64,000 bases of DNA, taken from positions 264,138-328,137 of the forward strand of contig JBBECT010000005.1 of assembly GCA_040881665.1 (NCBI GenBank), read 5' to 3'. This stretch comes from Actinomycetota bacterium (GTDB taxonomy: Bacteria > Actinomycetota > UBA4738 > HRBIN12). Below are positions 58,662 through 64,000 of this stretch, piece after piece. Both the position numbers and the translations under genes were made by a program. Numbering within the stretch: position 1 is the stretch's first letter; every line of letters begins with the position of its first letter. Under the pieces are notes generated by a model that worked only from the letters and a program-made list of their open reading frames with translations, made no database searches and had not been told where the DNA came from.

Positions 58662-58790
58662 GAACCACATATTCCACGTGATGACAGGCGAAGTCCGGTC
58701 AGAGTCCGGCGCTGTCCCGCAACGGTAGGTCCATCCGCGAGGGTGGGCGAGCCCGGTCGCCCTGTCGGTCACGAGGGCTGAACGACTTCC
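58662..58790 (+). ncRNA. Cobalamin riboswitch
   Basis: The conserved core is readable: GGCGAAGTCCGG, then GTCCGGCGCTGTCCCGC, then AACGGTA, and the B12-box-like GAGCCCGGTCGCCCTGTC at 58749-58766. It lies in the leader of the alpha-barrel/DUF4430/ECF operon and would lower expression when cobalamin is abundant. The exact ends are estimated from the -10 element and the last conserved pairing. Confidence 0.88.
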
Positions 58791-58830
58791 CGCGGAGGAA
58801 GGTCGCGCCCCCGGGCCCCGCCCGACGCGC

Positions 58831-58854
58831 CGACCCTCCCATCGCGGAGGGTCG
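58831..58854 (+). terminator. Candidate riboswitch expression-platform hairpin
   Basis: CGACCCTCC pairs with GGAGGGTCG around a six-base loop, followed by TTCCCGTT. It lies between the aptamer and the first start codon, so it may be a transcription terminator or a spacer; the ribosome site GGAAGGAG at 58882-58889 is outside it. Confidence 0.45.
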
Positions 58855-58895
58855 TTCCCGTTGGGCGCGAGGACACGCCCGGGAAGGAGCTCCAC

Positions 58896-59915
58896 ATGCG
58901 CACCGCCCTCCGAAGGTCGTTCGGCCTGCTCGTCGTAGCTGCACTTTCGCTGGCCACCGCCGTTCCGGCCACCGCGGCCCCATCCGACGAGGTGAAACGC
59001 TCACGGACCGCAGCGGGCTACCTCGCTTCGCAGCAGAAGCAGAACGGATCGTTCCCCGGATTCTCCCCGATCGGTTCCACCGCCGACGCCGTCACCTCAC
59101 TGGTCGCGGTCAAGCGCGGCAAGGGGAACATCACGAAGGCCCTGAACTTCCTCGCGCTCCAGACCGAGAACGGCAACACGACCGGAACCGGGCTCCAGGC
59201 CAAGGTGGCGCTCGCCGCGGTGGCCGGCGGCCGTAACCCCGAGAACTTCGGAGGAGAGGACCTCGTCGGCGCGATCGCGGACAGGGAACGGCCGAACGGC
59301 CGGCTCGGTGCGGGAACCGCCGTGTTCGATCAGGCCCTCGGCATCCTCGCCCTGGAGGCATCGGGCTCCGGAGCCTCCGCGAGCGCGAAGGACTGGCTCG
59401 TCGACGCGCAGTGCCCGGACGGCGGATGGGAGTACTCGGCCCGATGGACCGCGGGCAACGACGAGCACTGCACGAGCATCGCCGATCCCGGCAACGATTT
59501 CTTCTCCTCCGATACGAACACGACCTCCTACGCCGTGATGGCGCTCGAGGCGGCCGGCGCCGGTGCGCCCGACGAGAACCCGTTCGCGTTCTTCACCGAG
59601 ATCCGCGATCCGGCTCGTGGCGGCTGGGGCTACACGTGGGGGTTCCAGACGACCGACGCGAACTCCACGGGGCTGGTCCTGCAGGCGTACGCCGCTGCTG
59701 CCACCACAACCCCGGCGGGCAGTGTGAAGGCCCTGAAGGCGCTCCAGTACAAGCGCTGCGGCGCGTTCGCGTTCACCTGGAACGGCGCGGCGAAGACCCC
59801 ACCCGACCCCGGCGCCACGATCTCGGGCATCGTCGGTTTGCTCGGTCGCCCGTATCCGATCGCCGAAGCCGCGGTGACCAAGGCCGCACCTTCGACGCCC
59901 GCCTGCCCAGCGTAG
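58896..59915 (+). CDS. Secreted alpha/alpha-barrel protein, transcobalamin alpha-domain-like
   Basis: A 339-residue exported protein with a Sec signal (FGLLVVAALSLATAVPATAA). The mature part has prenyltransferase/squalene-cyclase-type repeats: LASQQKQNGSFPGF, ADRERPNGRLG, DAQCPDGGWEYS and RDPARGGWGYTWGF, separated by paired helices. This is the alpha6/alpha6 barrel also found as the alpha domain of intrinsic factor and transcobalamin. No enzyme active-site DxDD motif of cyclases is seen. It has no membrane anchor. Because a cobalamin riboswitch precedes it and a DUF4430 gene and an ECF transporter follow, I infer that it binds cobalamin outside the cell. Three cysteines in the second half may form a disulfide. 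RBS AAGGAG precedes the ATG. Confidence 0.82.
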   Translation: MRTALRRSFGLLVVAALSLATAVPATAAPSDEVKRSRTAAGYLASQQKQNGSFPGFSPIGSTADAVTSLVAVKRGKGNITKALNFLALQTENGNTTGTGLQAKVALAAVAGGRNPENFGGEDLVGAIADRERPNGRLGAGTAVFDQALGILALEASGSGASASAKDWLVDAQCPDGGWEYSARWTAGNDEHCTSIADPGNDFFSSDTNTTSYAVMALEAAGAGAPDENPFAFFTEIRDPARGGWGYTWGFQTTDANSTGLVLQAYAAAATTTPAGSVKALKALQYKRCGAFAFTWNGAAKTPPDPGATISGIVGLLGRPYPIAEAAVTKAAPSTPACPA

Positions 59916-59925
59916 GAGCGGATCG

Positions 59926-60858
59926 ATGCAGACCCCGATCGAAGCAACGACATCCGCGGGGGGCCGGCGACTCGGCCGGCTCCTCGCGGCCGTCCTGTTC
60001 GTCGCGCTGCTGGCACCGGCACCGGCCCTGCTCTCGGCCGCGCCCGCCTGTGCCGACAGCGATCAGCACGCCGCCCTCGTCGTGGACACGGGCGGTCAGG
60101 AGCTCTCCTACTGCGTGGCGATCCCCGGAACCGTCGACGGGATCGAGCTGCTGCGCCTCGCGAGCCGCCAGTACGGACTCTCGTACTCCCTCGGGTTCGG
60201 CGGGGAAGCCGTCTGCATGATCGCGGGCGTCGGGGTCAGCGGCGGCGACTGCTTCGCGGACTTCCCTCGCTTCTGGGGCTACTGGCGCGGCGCGCCCTCC
60301 GGCGGATGGAGCTGGTCGAGCGTAGGGGCCGGATCGGTCTCGGTCTCTCCGGGAGACGTCCAGGGATGGAGCTGGGGCAGCGGGCAGGACGGCTCCAACC
60401 ACCCCGCTCCCCCGGTCACCCCGTTCACCTCGGTATGCGAACCGGATGACCCGCCCGGGAACGGTGGGAACGGGGGCAACGGCGGATCGAACGTTGGCGG
60501 GGCGAGCGGTGGCTCGGGCGGAACCGCATCGGACGCCGGCGGGAGTGGCAACGGCGGACCCGCGAACGGTAACGGGAACCAGAACGGTTCCGACGACGAG
60601 CGGCGACGCGAGGAACGCAACGACGGTAACGATCGAAACGCCCGCCCCGAGGACGACCGGCCTCCGAGAACGGGGGTCGACGACACGGCAATGACCGACG
60701 AAGCGGTCGCCGCCTCCGCCACACCGGTGAACGCGGTCGCGCTCGGCGACGCTGAGGACGGCAGCTCGGGTGCGGCCGGCGCGGTGGTCAGCCTCGTCGC
60801 GCTCGCGGTGCTGATCGGGGCGGGTGCGTTCCTAACCTGGAAGCGCCGCGTCGGCTAA
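59926..60858 (+). CDS. Membrane-anchored DUF4430 protein, transcobalamin beta-domain-like
   Basis: A 310-residue surface protein. Signal or anchor helix at about 20-38; then a DUF4430 (transcobalamin C-terminal type) domain at about 45-150, with GGQELSYCVAIPGTVDGIELL, DFPRFWGYWRGAPSGGW and DVQGWSWGSG. A Gly/Asn-rich, then charged, linker follows (about 165-255) and a C-terminal membrane helix plus KRR stop-transfer, so the domain is held at the membrane. In animal B12 carriers this fold closes over cobalamin bound by the alpha barrel. It starts ten bases after the barrel gene. B12 binding is inferred from fold and context, not shown. Confidence 0.82.
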   Translation: MQTPIEATTSAGGRRLGRLLAAVLFVALLAPAPALLSAAPACADSDQHAALVVDTGGQELSYCVAIPGTVDGIELLRLASRQYGLSYSLGFGGEAVCMIAGVGVSGGDCFADFPRFWGYWRGAPSGGWSWSSVGAGSVSVSPGDVQGWSWGSGQDGSNHPAPPVTPFTSVCEPDDPPGNGGNGGNGGSNVGGASGGSGGTASDAGGSGNGGPANGNGNQNGSDDERRREERNDGNDRNARPEDDRPPRTGVDDTAMTDEAVAASATPVNAVALGDAEDGSSGAAGAVVSLVALAVLIGAGAFLTWKRRVG

Positions 60859-60860
60859 CG

Positions 60861-61646
60861 ATGTACCCGGTCGCGTGGATCGCGTGGGCGAGCGGAGCGG
60901 CCTTCGTCGCGTTCAGCACGGCGAACCCGTGGTACCTGCTCCCGCTCGTCGGCGTCGCCTGGTTCGTCCACGCCGCGCACCAGCGAGATGGACCATGGGC
61001 GCGCTCGTTCCGGATGTTCCTGACGTTCGCGGTGATCGCGATCGTCCTGCGGACCGGACTAGTTCTGTTCGGCACGGTGAACGCGTCCAACGTCGTGTAC
61101 GCGGCCTACGAAGGGCTCCGCCTCGGCGTGCTCCTCGTCGTGTTCGGCACCTTCAACTCGGTGACCGATCCGTTCGGGGTGCTGCGGCTCGCGCCGCGGA
61201 GGTTCCACGAGCCGGCGTTGGCGGCGGCGCTCGCGCTGTCGATCGCGCCGCGCACGATCGCCGCCGCCGGACGGGTCCGTGAGGCACAGGAGCTGCGCGG
61301 GTTCCGACTGCGGAAGTGGCGCTCGCTCCCAGCGCTGGCGGTCCCGGTGCTCGAGACGGGCATGGAAGAGGCGATGACGCTGGCCGAGAGCATGGACGCC
61401 CGCGGTCACGGCCGGGGGCGCCGGTCGCGCTACCGCCCCGAGCGCTGGAGCCCCGGCGCCGTCGTGACCGCCGCATCCGGACTGATCGCGGGGAGCGTGT
61501 TCGTCTCGCAGGCGATCGCGCATCGTCCGGACCTCATCCCGATCACCGATCCCCTCACCTGGCCGGAGGCGACCCCCTGGCTCGTCGGCGTGGTACTCCT
61601 CCTGGCGGTCCCCGGGCTGCTCCCCCGGAGAGACGAACGACGATGA
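60861..61646 (+). CDS. ecfT: ECF transporter transmembrane coupling protein EcfT
   Basis: The T component, 261 residues, with five to six membrane helices and the cytosolic coupling helices that contact the ATPases; the family Ala-Arg-Gly signature appears in ESMDARGHGRG, with a second one in EAQELRGFRLR. It couples ATP hydrolysis to toppling of the S component. It follows the DUF4430 gene by two bases and overlaps the ATPase gene (ATGA). Confidence 0.92.
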   Translation: MYPVAWIAWASGAAFVAFSTANPWYLLPLVGVAWFVHAAHQRDGPWARSFRMFLTFAVIAIVLRTGLVLFGTVNASNVVYAAYEGLRLGVLLVVFGTFNSVTDPFGVLRLAPRRFHEPALAAALALSIAPRTIAAAGRVREAQELRGFRLRKWRSLPALAVPVLETGMEEAMTLAESMDARGHGRGRRSRYRPERWSPGAVVTAASGLIAGSVFVSQAIAHRPDLIPITDPLTWPEATPWLVGVVLLLAVPGLLPRRDERR

Positions 61647-63244
61647 GCCCCGCGCTGCGCTACGAACGGGTCACCTTCCACTACCCCGATTCGGAGCGAT
61701 CCGCGATCACCGACGTCGACCTCGACATCGCGGAGGGATCCTTCGCGCTCTCGGCGGGACCGACGGGTGCGGGCAAGTCGACCTTGCTGCGCGCCGCGAA
61801 CGGACTCGTTCCTCACTTCACCGGCGGGGCCTTCGCCGGCCGGGTCACGGTCGCCGGCCGCGACACGACGACGCACCGACCGCGCGACCTCGCCGACGCC
61901 GTCGCGTTCGTCCCGCAGGATCCCGGCGCGTCGTTCGTCCTCGACCGGGTGGAGGAGGAACTCGCCTACGGGATGGAGAACCTCCAGGTCCCCTCCGGTC
62001 GGATGCGGCGCCGGGTCGAGGAGACGCTCGATCTGCTCGACATCGCTCCGCTCCGTGACCGCAGCGTCCGGACGCTCTCCGGTGGCGAGCGCCAACGTGT
62101 GGCGATCGCGGCGGCGCTCGCGGCGGGTCCGCGCCTGCTCGTCCTCGACGAGCCGACGAGTCAGCTCGATCCCCAGGGGGCAGAGGACGTCCTGGCCGCC
62201 CTCCAGCGCATGGTGCACGACCTCGGGATGACGGTTCTGCTGGCAGAGCACCGCCTCGAGCGGGTGGCCGGGTTCGCGGATATCGCCGTCGCGGTCCACG
62301 ACGGAGCGGTCACCTCCGGCGCGCCCTCCGACCTCCTCGGAAGGGTCGTCGGTGGACCGCCCGTAACACGGCTCGGCGATCTCCTAGGATGGGATCCCGC
62401 TCCGATCACCGTCCGCGAGGCTCGAGCGTTGGCGCGTGAGCTCGCGCTCGGAGTCGGTCCGTCCCCACCGACCGTGACGCCGGGAGCTCCCTTGGTGCGG
62501 GCCCGCGGGTTGCACGCGGGCTACTCGGGCGCGGGAGTGCTCCACGGCGTGGACCTCGAGCTCGGCGAGGGCGAGATCGTCGCACTGATGGGCCGCAACG
62601 GCGCCGGCAAGACGACCTTGCTCCGCTGCCTGACGGGCGTGCACGCGCCGGCGCGCGGAAGCGTCGAGGTCCCGTCACGACCACCCCGACCAGGCATCGA
62701 CGTGGCGCTGTGCCCCCAGGAGCCCGAGACCGTGCTGTTCGCCGAGACCGTCGAGGACGAGATCCACGCGTCGCTGCGAGCCCGAGGCCGGAGCGGCGAA
62801 CCCGCCCCTCACCTCCAACGGCTCGCCCTCGAGGGGTTGTCGGGGCGCCATCCCAGAGACCTGTCCTCCGGACAGCGCCTGCTGGTGGCCGCGGCGGCTG
62901 TGGCGGCGTCGGGCGCTCCCGCGCTGCTGCTCGACGAGCCGACCAGAGGTCTGGACCCCGAGGCGAAGCAGCGCCTGTCGACGTTCCTGCGCGCCCACGC
63001 GCGGGAGGGAGGGACGGTACTGTTCGCCACCCACGACGTCGAGCTCGTGGCGGCCCTCGCGACGCGCGTGGTGCTGCTGGCTGGCGGCGAGGTGATCGCG
63101 GACGGCAGCCCCTCGGAGGTGCTCGGCGACTCCCACGTGTTCGCGCCGCAGATGACCCGCGTGTTCGGCCCGGGCTGGCTGACCCCCGAGCAGGTCGCCG
63201 AGGCGACCGGGGCGCGCGGGCAACCGACAGAGGTCGTCCGGTGA
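61643..63244 (+). CDS. ecfA: ECF transporter ATPase, two nucleotide-binding domains fused
   Basis: A 533-residue protein with two ABC ATPase domains in one chain, standing in for EcfA1 and EcfA2. Domain 1 (about 1-235): GPTGAGKST, Q-loop FVPQDPG, signature LSGGERQRV, Walker B LLVLDEPTSQLD, switch LAEHRLE. Domain 2 (about 285-520): GRNGAGKTT, ALCPQEPE, LSSGQRLLV (a variant signature), ALLLDEPTRGLD, FATHDVE. The variant second signature is common in the EcfA2-type half. The stop overlaps the S component start (GTGA). Confidence 0.93.
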   Translation: MSPALRYERVTFHYPDSERSAITDVDLDIAEGSFALSAGPTGAGKSTLLRAANGLVPHFTGGAFAGRVTVAGRDTTTHRPRDLADAVAFVPQDPGASFVLDRVEEELAYGMENLQVPSGRMRRRVEETLDLLDIAPLRDRSVRTLSGGERQRVAIAAALAAGPRLLVLDEPTSQLDPQGAEDVLAALQRMVHDLGMTVLLAEHRLERVAGFADIAVAVHDGAVTSGAPSDLLGRVVGGPPVTRLGDLLGWDPAPITVREARALARELALGVGPSPPTVTPGAPLVRARGLHAGYSGAGVLHGVDLELGEGEIVALMGRNGAGKTTLLRCLTGVHAPARGSVEVPSRPPRPGIDVALCPQEPETVLFAETVEDEIHASLRARGRSGEPAPHLQRLALEGLSGRHPRDLSSGQRLLVAAAAVAASGAPALLLDEPTRGLDPEAKQRLSTFLRAHAREGGTVLFATHDVELVAALATRVVLLAGGEVIADGSPSEVLGDSHVFAPQMTRVFGPGWLTPEQVAEATGARGQPTEVVR

Positions 63245-64000
63245 GCGTGGCGGCGACCGCAACCGTTCGCGGTACACGCCTTCGCATCGCGCTGCTCGTG
63301 CTCGCGAACGTGATCGCCGCGCTCGCGTTCCTCTGGCCGTTCCTGGTTCCCGGACTGCTCGGCGAGAGCTCCCCGCACGCGGAGGACGCCCCGTTCCTGC
63401 TGCTCGCCGTCCTCGGCTGTCTCACCGTGGTGCTGTTCCTCGACCTGGGGCGGGGAGGGATCGGCCCGAAGGGCGTGGCGTTGATCGGCGTCTTGGGCGC
63501 CGCGATGGTCGCGCTCCGCCTCCCGGGGTTCGTGGCCGGATTCTCGGCGATGTTCATCATCGTGCTCGTCGCCGGGAACGCCTTCGGACCGGCGTTCGGG
63601 TTCGTGCTCGGCGCGATCGGGCTGTTCGCGAGTGGGCTGTTCCTCGGCGGGATCGGACCCTGGCTTCCGTTCCAGATGGCTGCCGTCGGGTGGGTCGGTC
63701 TGGGCGCGGGTCTGTTACCCGGGACCGAGACATCCTGGCGAGTCCGCCTGGGCGCGCTGGCCGCGTACGGGTTCGTGGTCGGCTACGCGTTCGGGATCGT
63801 GATGAACCTGTGGTCGTGGCCGTTCACGACTGCGGGCACCGCGATCGGCTGGGTCCCCCAAGAGGATCTGTCCGAGAACGTGCAGCACTACGCGACCTAC
63901 TACATGACCACATCGTTCGTGTGGGACACGTTCCGGGCGTTCGGGAACGCGGCGATGGTCCTCGTGCTCGGGCGTCCGTTGCTCGGAGCGCTCGACCGCG
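63241..64000 (+). CDS. ECF transporter substrate-binding S component (partial), probable B12
   Basis: The gene starts at GTG 63241, overlapping the ATPase stop, and runs past the right edge; about 253 residues are visible. It is strongly hydrophobic with at least six helices. Segments such as GNAFGPAFGFVLGAIGLFASG and GIGPWLPFQMAAVGWVGLGAG are typical of ECF S components. The riboswitch and carrier-like proteins upstream point to cobalamin as the substrate, as for CbrT, but S components cannot be assigned by sequence feel alone. Confidence 0.82.
   Translation, partial: MSVAATATVRGTRLRIALLVLANVIAALAFLWPFLVPGLLGESSPHAEDAPFLLLAVLGCLTVVLFLDLGRGGIGPKGVALIGVLGAAMVALRLPGFVAGFSAMFIIVLVAGNAFGPAFGFVLGAIGLFASGLFLGGIGPWLPFQMAAVGWVGLGAGLLPGTETSWRVRLGALAAYGFVVGYAFGIVMNLWSWPFTTAGTAIGWVPQEDLSENVQHYATYYMTTSFVWDTFRAFGNAAMVLVLGRPLLGALDR

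Follow-up and report, generated by a model that had tools for sequence, protein, structure and literature searches.

Two adjacent genes near the end of the window (by which is meant the whole stretch of 64,000 nucleotides analysed, from an Actinomycetota genome) encode the putative halves of a transcobalamin-like carrier. They are preceded by a candidate cobalamin riboswitch and followed by genes for an ECF-type transporter (Table 1). The first gene product, termed here alpha, is a predicted secreted alpha/alpha barrel, and the second, termed beta, is a beta-grasp protein predicted to be held to the membrane. The two open reading frames are separated by 10 nt and each has a ribosome-binding site; the limits given to both genes in the first-pass annotation, which was made from the sequence alone, proved correct. 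The genes for EcfT, the EcfA/A' ATPases and an S-component stand together, as is expected of an ECF transporter. The S-component gene extends 101 bp beyond the window and has its stop at L001:8239.

Table 1. Coordinates of the riboswitch, carrier and transporter features in the window
Feature	Position	Strand	Basis or remark
Cobalamin (AdoCbl-class) riboswitch aptamer, candidate	58664..58811	+	RF01482, 38 bits
Leader, aptamer to start codon, with strong hairpin; possible expression platform	58812..58895	+	
Alpha half, SCO2321-like alpha/alpha barrel, 339 aa	58896..59915	+	Signal peptide, no C-terminal anchor
Beta half, transcobalamin-like beta-grasp, 310 aa	59926..60858	+	AF2, Foldseek, SCO2322_fam
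EcfT (CbiQ-like) transmembrane coupling protein	60861..61646	+	PF02361 (CbiQ), E 3e-5, just below cut-off
EcfA-EcfA' fused double ATPase	61643..63244	+	Two ABC_tran domains; ECF_ATPase families, E ~1e-83
ECF S-component, start	63241..64000	+	PF12822 (ECF_trnsprt), E 1.7e-8

The alpha half

The N-terminal signal is the sole strongly hydrophobic segment of alpha and no transmembrane segment follows the domain; the protein is probably released into the medium. The AlphaFold2 model, which like that of beta represents a single chain without ligand, is an all-helical toroid (pLDDT 93.6). Alpha resembles the NCBIfam family SCO2321_fam (E 3.3e-26), with a score of 92 against 300 bits, below the cut-off.

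Family alignments of 63 alphas and 87 beta domains were made from gathered relatives. Squalene cyclases, drimenyl cyclases and Rab GGTase lead the matches both of the alpha family profile in HMM searches and of the alpha model in Foldseek. Transcobalamin appears in the Foldseek list from rank 33 (E 1.2e-4), and because terpene cyclases and Rab GGTase outrank it, the alpha fold alone is non-diagnostic. The family profile also matches transcobalamin-1 (E 0.0024) over positions 28-281 of 286. In local hhalign the alpha profile and human transcobalamin align in register (E 4e-4; the human sequence used is identical to 2bb5), such that YGLGILAL aligns with DQALGILAL, STPLALQ with STGLVLQ, and N208 and D254 with human Asp176 and Asn224; no alignment was obtained with global hhalign. 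The transcobalamin-family models of Pfam and NCBIfam match neither alpha nor beta of the window, and single-sequence searches with the window proteins give no significant match to the animal carriers.

The DXDD motif of class II terpene cyclases is absent from the motif site in all 63 alphas. The site reads D-x-N/D-T in this family, with a fourth position that is never D. An enzymatic role of alpha was rejected for want of DXDD at this site. Cysteines 173, 192, 288 and 337 of alpha are conserved within the clade to which the window belongs (the window clade), one of them at the extreme C-terminus.

The beta half

Beta consists of a signal segment, a domain at approximately residues 46-175, a linker (residues 172-283) and a C-terminal transmembrane helix (approximately 279-306), which is followed by KRRVG. 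The linker, of about 112 residues, is disordered and contains 26 glycines and 13 asparagines before it becomes charged, in line with its earlier description as a Gly/Asn and charged linker ahead of a C-terminal helix. The claim that only one half is anchored also appears sound, since alpha has no later hydrophobic segment and beta has the helix, as predicted from their sequences.

The AlphaFold2 model of the domain has a pLDDT of 93 and a pTM of 0.88. Its top Foldseek match in the PDB is the isolated human transcobalamin beta domain (5np4, E 7.7e-4; 5no0, E 9.8e-4), and each of the top 17 matches is a transcobalamin or an intrinsic factor, except for the two chains of R. gnavus 3u7z. The secondary structure elements of the model follow the order E3-9 E14-20 H27-38 E42-45 E50-54 E70-77 E83-85 E100-107. 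Its beta-grasp core carries a beta-hairpin inserted behind the helix, an arrangement that places the domain with the transcobalamin-like clade of SLBB domains, as the insert is defined in PMC1796856.

It was fold comparison alone that linked beta to transcobalamin: the beta profile gave no significant match to PDB sequences, transcobalamin included, and local hhalign with human transcobalamin gave an E-value of 0.08 and no usable alignment. Beta matches NCBIfam SCO2322_fam with an E-value of 1e-6 and 29 against 85 bits, below the cut-off. The label DUF4430, used for this half in the first-pass annotation, needs correction. PF14478, the DUF4430 model, has no match in the window protein or anywhere in the genome, and it weakly matches 3 of the 87 beta relatives (best E 0.0013). 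The kinship shows at the level of fold; by sequence, PF14478 does not reach the window beta. A plasmid search with beta gave no match. The locus search was performed with a closer set of beta sequences, the nine-sequence beta alignment being too diverse.

Cysteines 42, 63, 97, 109 and 171 of beta are conserved within the window clade. One of them coincides with the position where the signal is predicted to be cleaved (ACA), and processing or acylation may take place there.

The ECF transporter

The position of the EcfT gene is kept in relatives. The family profile of the S-component has a sole PDB match, 6fnp_A, which is CbrT of ECF-CbrT (E 1.4e-6 over 116 positions); as a single sequence, the window S-component finds no CbrT match in the PDB. 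By profile comparison the S-component is homologous to CbrT, and it may bind and transport B12.

ECF-CbrT of Lactobacillus delbrueckii (6FNP) imports cobalamin (PMC5997447), and it shares the ECF module and the homologous S-component with the window operon. Two differences should be pointed out. The gene for the CbrT S-component lies in an nrdJ-cbrS-cbrT-pduO cluster (PMC5997447), unlike that of the window operon. In addition, ECF-CbrT needs no extracellular binding protein (PMC5997447), whereas the window operon encodes alpha and beta.

The candidate riboswitch and the B12 economy of the host

The candidate aptamer has an E-value of 2e-5 with RF01482 (601 bp searched) and lies below the gathering score of 50. 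With RF00174 it reaches 28.3 bits (E 2.5e-5), where the cut-off is 31.5. This sub-threshold match is the only cobalamin riboswitch match in the genome. Among 27 related loci scanned, 20 have an above-threshold cobalamin riboswitch directly upstream of alpha. The hairpin of the leader has a 9-bp stem (CGACCCUCC/GGAGGGUCG), and the minimum free energy of the leader is -46.5 kcal/mol (z -2.0 relative to shuffles); the switching mechanism of the riboswitch may reside here. In one distant relative, tandem cobalamin riboswitches (n=2; L051:1018-1186 and 1335-1478) are found upstream of a beta-alpha fusion gene.

B12-binding domains were assigned by sequence at four places in the host genome, MetH, a methylmalonyl-mutase-type subunit and corrinoid methyltransferase operons among them. 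A gene for a PduO-type cobalamin adenosyltransferase is found 6 kb downstream of the operon. No gene for CobS, CbiC or a FecCD (BtuC-type) permease turned up in the host genome. The genome predicts a B12 auxotroph with the operon as the sole B12 importer in sight; the auxotrophy is predicted and not proven because the assembly is 96% complete. The B12 role put forward in the first-pass annotation agrees with the riboswitch match, the CbrT-like S-component and this auxotroph profile.

Two corrinoid methyltransferase operons (G000:C4:384573, L106; C4:123699, L107) also encode a corrinoid protein together with a ferredoxin-type activator, which suggests B12-dependent methyl-group metabolism in this actinobacterium.

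Distribution and fusion of the modules

The gene order alpha-beta-EcfT-EcfAA'-S, an unanchored alpha and a beta with linker and helix are uniform in 12 genomes of the window clade, which have a single alpha and a single beta each. Alpha and beta co-occur in the same 10 of 17 genomes of the same family, and neither was found in the remaining genomes. The earlier assignment of the halves of a transcobalamin-like carrier to two genes is borne out by the folds, the profiles and the uniformity of the pair in the 12 related genomes, and the arrangement does not owe itself to chance.

In more distant Actinomycetota and in Chloroflexota the modules are reshuffled. Alpha, beta and a transmembrane helix form a single chain in two loci (L030, L031), and a third locus (L137) has an alpha-beta protein with a CWB2-like (cell-wall-repeat-like) tail, together with a beta with transmembrane helix. 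The opposite order is seen in a beta-alpha fusion (L051) and in beta-alpha-alpha fusions (n=7 loci), and a separate membrane-anchored beta is also present where the contig reaches. Some distant relatives have a tandem alpha-alpha protein, a small beta (often with PEP-CTERM) and a membrane-anchored beta. Elsewhere alpha has its own anchor, in the form of SLH (L033), cell-wall repeats (L135) or a transmembrane segment (L035, L080, L100 and the Streptomyces-type L130). The linker-and-helix arrangement occurs in at least 51 betas, with linkers of 11-259 residues (median 125).

Tethered beta and the S-component share one reading frame in two genomes (L077:9905-12367, L097:9090-11297), and tethered beta and EcfT do so in one (L100:4848-6677). 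From the alpha-beta and beta-transporter fusions it follows that alpha belongs with beta and that tethered beta is located at the transporter. Neither the transporter operon nor the beta-S and beta-EcfT fusions, which reveal the necessary destination of docking, figured in the first-pass annotation, whose proposal of docking extended to alpha and beta. Lineages shuffle the alpha and beta modules: these are fused in either order, doubled or circularly permuted, and beta is also joined to the S-component or EcfT.

Many Anaerolineae have a second small beta (~190 aa), often with a PEP-CTERM motif, adjoining the tethered beta. Small-beta loci of Chloroflexota include L050, L052, L055, L056, L073, L088, L095, L096 and others. 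Several Anaerolineae with tandem alpha-alpha proteins have in this way two alphas and two betas. Secreted alphas of Chloroflexota also carry a recurrent C-terminal motif similar to YLPLVLR or WFLPLALRN (L050, L053, L065, L073, L077, L085, L096 and L099), which is possibly a sorting or anchoring signal.

Proposed mechanism and alternatives

The locus is best interpreted, with a probability of roughly three in four, as a naturally split transcobalamin placed outside the cell as the front end of a B12 importer of the ECF type. Under B12 scarcity, the riboswitch would switch the operon on. The alpha barrel would be secreted, and beta would be exported and anchored in the membrane through its C-terminal helix, on a flexible leash of about 112 residues, beside the S-component, a position that would allow hand-off of B12 to the ECF pump. 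We infer B12 binding, B12-dependent association and hand-off: B12 on one half would recruit the other, a ternary alpha-B12-beta complex would form at the cell surface, and B12 would be passed to the CbrT-like S-component for ATP-driven uptake.

Pairing in trans, as proposed in the first-pass annotation, is supported indirectly by the natural alpha-beta and beta-alpha fusions and by the human domains, which assemble solely upon addition of B12. Separately made human transcobalamin alpha and beta domains co-elute solely with CNCbl (PMC5599065). A further part of that proposal, that the soluble half binds B12 first, is conceivable but not supported. In the human system, the beta domain on its own binds CNCbl (5np4, PMC5599065) and needed extensive washing to lose B12, whereas alpha came empty (PMC5599065). 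The human case thus points rather to beta as the first binder. By analogy, it is equally or more likely that tethered beta binds B12 before alpha does, and the order favoured would be tethered beta first with alpha closing over. That the pair is a natural split receptor assembled by its ligand, in which free alpha joins the transporter-tethered beta only through a B12 molecule, so that closure and delivery occur only at the pump, is a tentative proposal with slightly less than even odds.

The main rival is a constitutive alpha-beta complex, in which beta does no more than anchor alpha to the membrane and B12 binds in a preassembled cleft, with no capture and docking. The presence of both genes in one operon and their 1:1 dosage in the window clade would fit such a complex, as would the fact that the window alpha has no other anchor and that elsewhere alpha is fused to beta or self-anchored. 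Human transcobalamin and intrinsic-factor domains, however, remain separate without cobalamin and have a very small interface (PMC5599065), and we regard the constitutive complex as rather unlikely.

It is less probable still that beta alone is the importer's B12 receptor and that alpha is a diffusible scavenger which hands over its cargo without a closed ternary complex. In the window clade alpha and beta are each encoded only once, and tethered beta is therefore the sole possible partner of alpha; this speaks against a division into carrier and receptor, which is nevertheless what the second soluble or PEP-CTERM beta of many Chloroflexota, present besides the tethered beta, resembles. The CNCbl-binding isolated human beta domain (5np4) is also in keeping with a receptor of this type.

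The cargo of the operon could be another corrinoid, e.g. cobinamide. ECF-CbrT also transports cobinamide (PMC5997447) and transcobalamin beta binds it (PMC5599065), but CobS, which is needed to complete cobinamide, was not found in the host; that incomplete corrinoids or another tetrapyrrole are carried in place of cobalamin is accordingly given little weight. Least probable is that alpha is a secreted enzyme of the terpene-cyclase, prenyltransferase or glycan-active fold and that a different ligand, or a corrinoid after processing, is taken up through the operon, as the leading cyclase and Rab GGTase matches might suggest, given that alpha lacks DXDD in 63 of 63 sequences, is secreted and is fused to a transcobalamin-like beta, and that B12 is indicated by the riboswitch and by the CbrT-like S-component.

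Some observations weigh against the split-transcobalamin importer itself. ECF-CbrT imports B12 without a soluble partner (PMC5997447). The folds nearest to the alpha model are terpene cyclases and prenyltransferases, with transcobalamin at rank 33; beta has no significant PDB sequence match to transcobalamin, and the window riboswitch falls below the Rfam cut-off.

If the interpretation is correct, a split transcobalamin would give ECF importers a receptor stage. To our knowledge, ECF importers normally have no extracellular binding protein, and we know of little on B12 capture by monoderms beyond ECF-CbrT and BtuFCD. The finding would also bear on the proposed bacterial origin of the animal B12 carriers. 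The alpha/beta pair is small and its soluble domains should express easily, and association solely in the presence of B12 can be tested chromatographically, for which there is the human precedent.

Relation to known systems

Animal transcobalamin, intrinsic factor and haptocorrin, like the window pair, combine an alpha/alpha barrel with a beta-grasp beta domain; both parts of this carrier fold, the barrel and the transcobalamin-type beta-grasp, were recognized in the window proteins by AlphaFold2 and Foldseek. The animal carriers are one chain, whereas the window and its 12 relatives have two genes, and the window beta is membrane-tethered on a long linker. The animal carriers feed an endocytic receptor; the window pair adjoins an ECF pump.

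Transcobalamin-like SLBB proteins of bacteria, linked to CbiO/CbiQ operons, have been proposed as B12 scavengers (Burroughs 2007, PMC1796856), and this general idea of B12 capture is thus already published. The available part of that paper describes toroid-SLBB fusions in both orders, mainly in low-GC Gram-positives, and suggests that paralogous SLBB proteins build surface complexes (PMC1796856). A secreted or surface SLBB domain, an alpha/alpha toroid and ECF-type genes in one operon are common to those systems and the window. The same part of the paper mentions neither a two-gene split nor a one-sided tether, and neither a CbrT-like S-component nor fusions of beta to S or EcfT; this clade in Actinomycetota or Chloroflexota is likewise absent from it. 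The split with its one-sided tether, and its spread in Actinomycetota and Chloroflexota, look new in the literature searched; so do the CbrT-like S-component, the beta-S and beta-EcfT fusions, and the permuted alpha and beta of Streptomyces-type operons.

Streptomyces-type operons and circular permutation

SCO2321/SCO2322 of Streptomyces share with the window both the gene pair and its ECF operon. The window alpha and beta score far under the NCBIfam cut-offs for SCO2321 and SCO2322, and a search of the literature on SCO2321-2325 found nothing relevant. The Streptomyces-type alpha differs by its transmembrane helix, and circular permutation relative to the window forms is seen in alpha as well as in beta. 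Permutants of both proteins were found in L130, L131 and L142 (G047, G251 and G183), termed Streptomyces-type on their SCO2322_fam score, and in L132. The permuted alphas follow profile positions ~70-275 and then 1-100; doubling of the sequence lifts their score (e.g. from 133 to 180 bits), and does not lift that of the window alpha. In the permuted beta, the YW...GDVxG half precedes the VVxDFG half.
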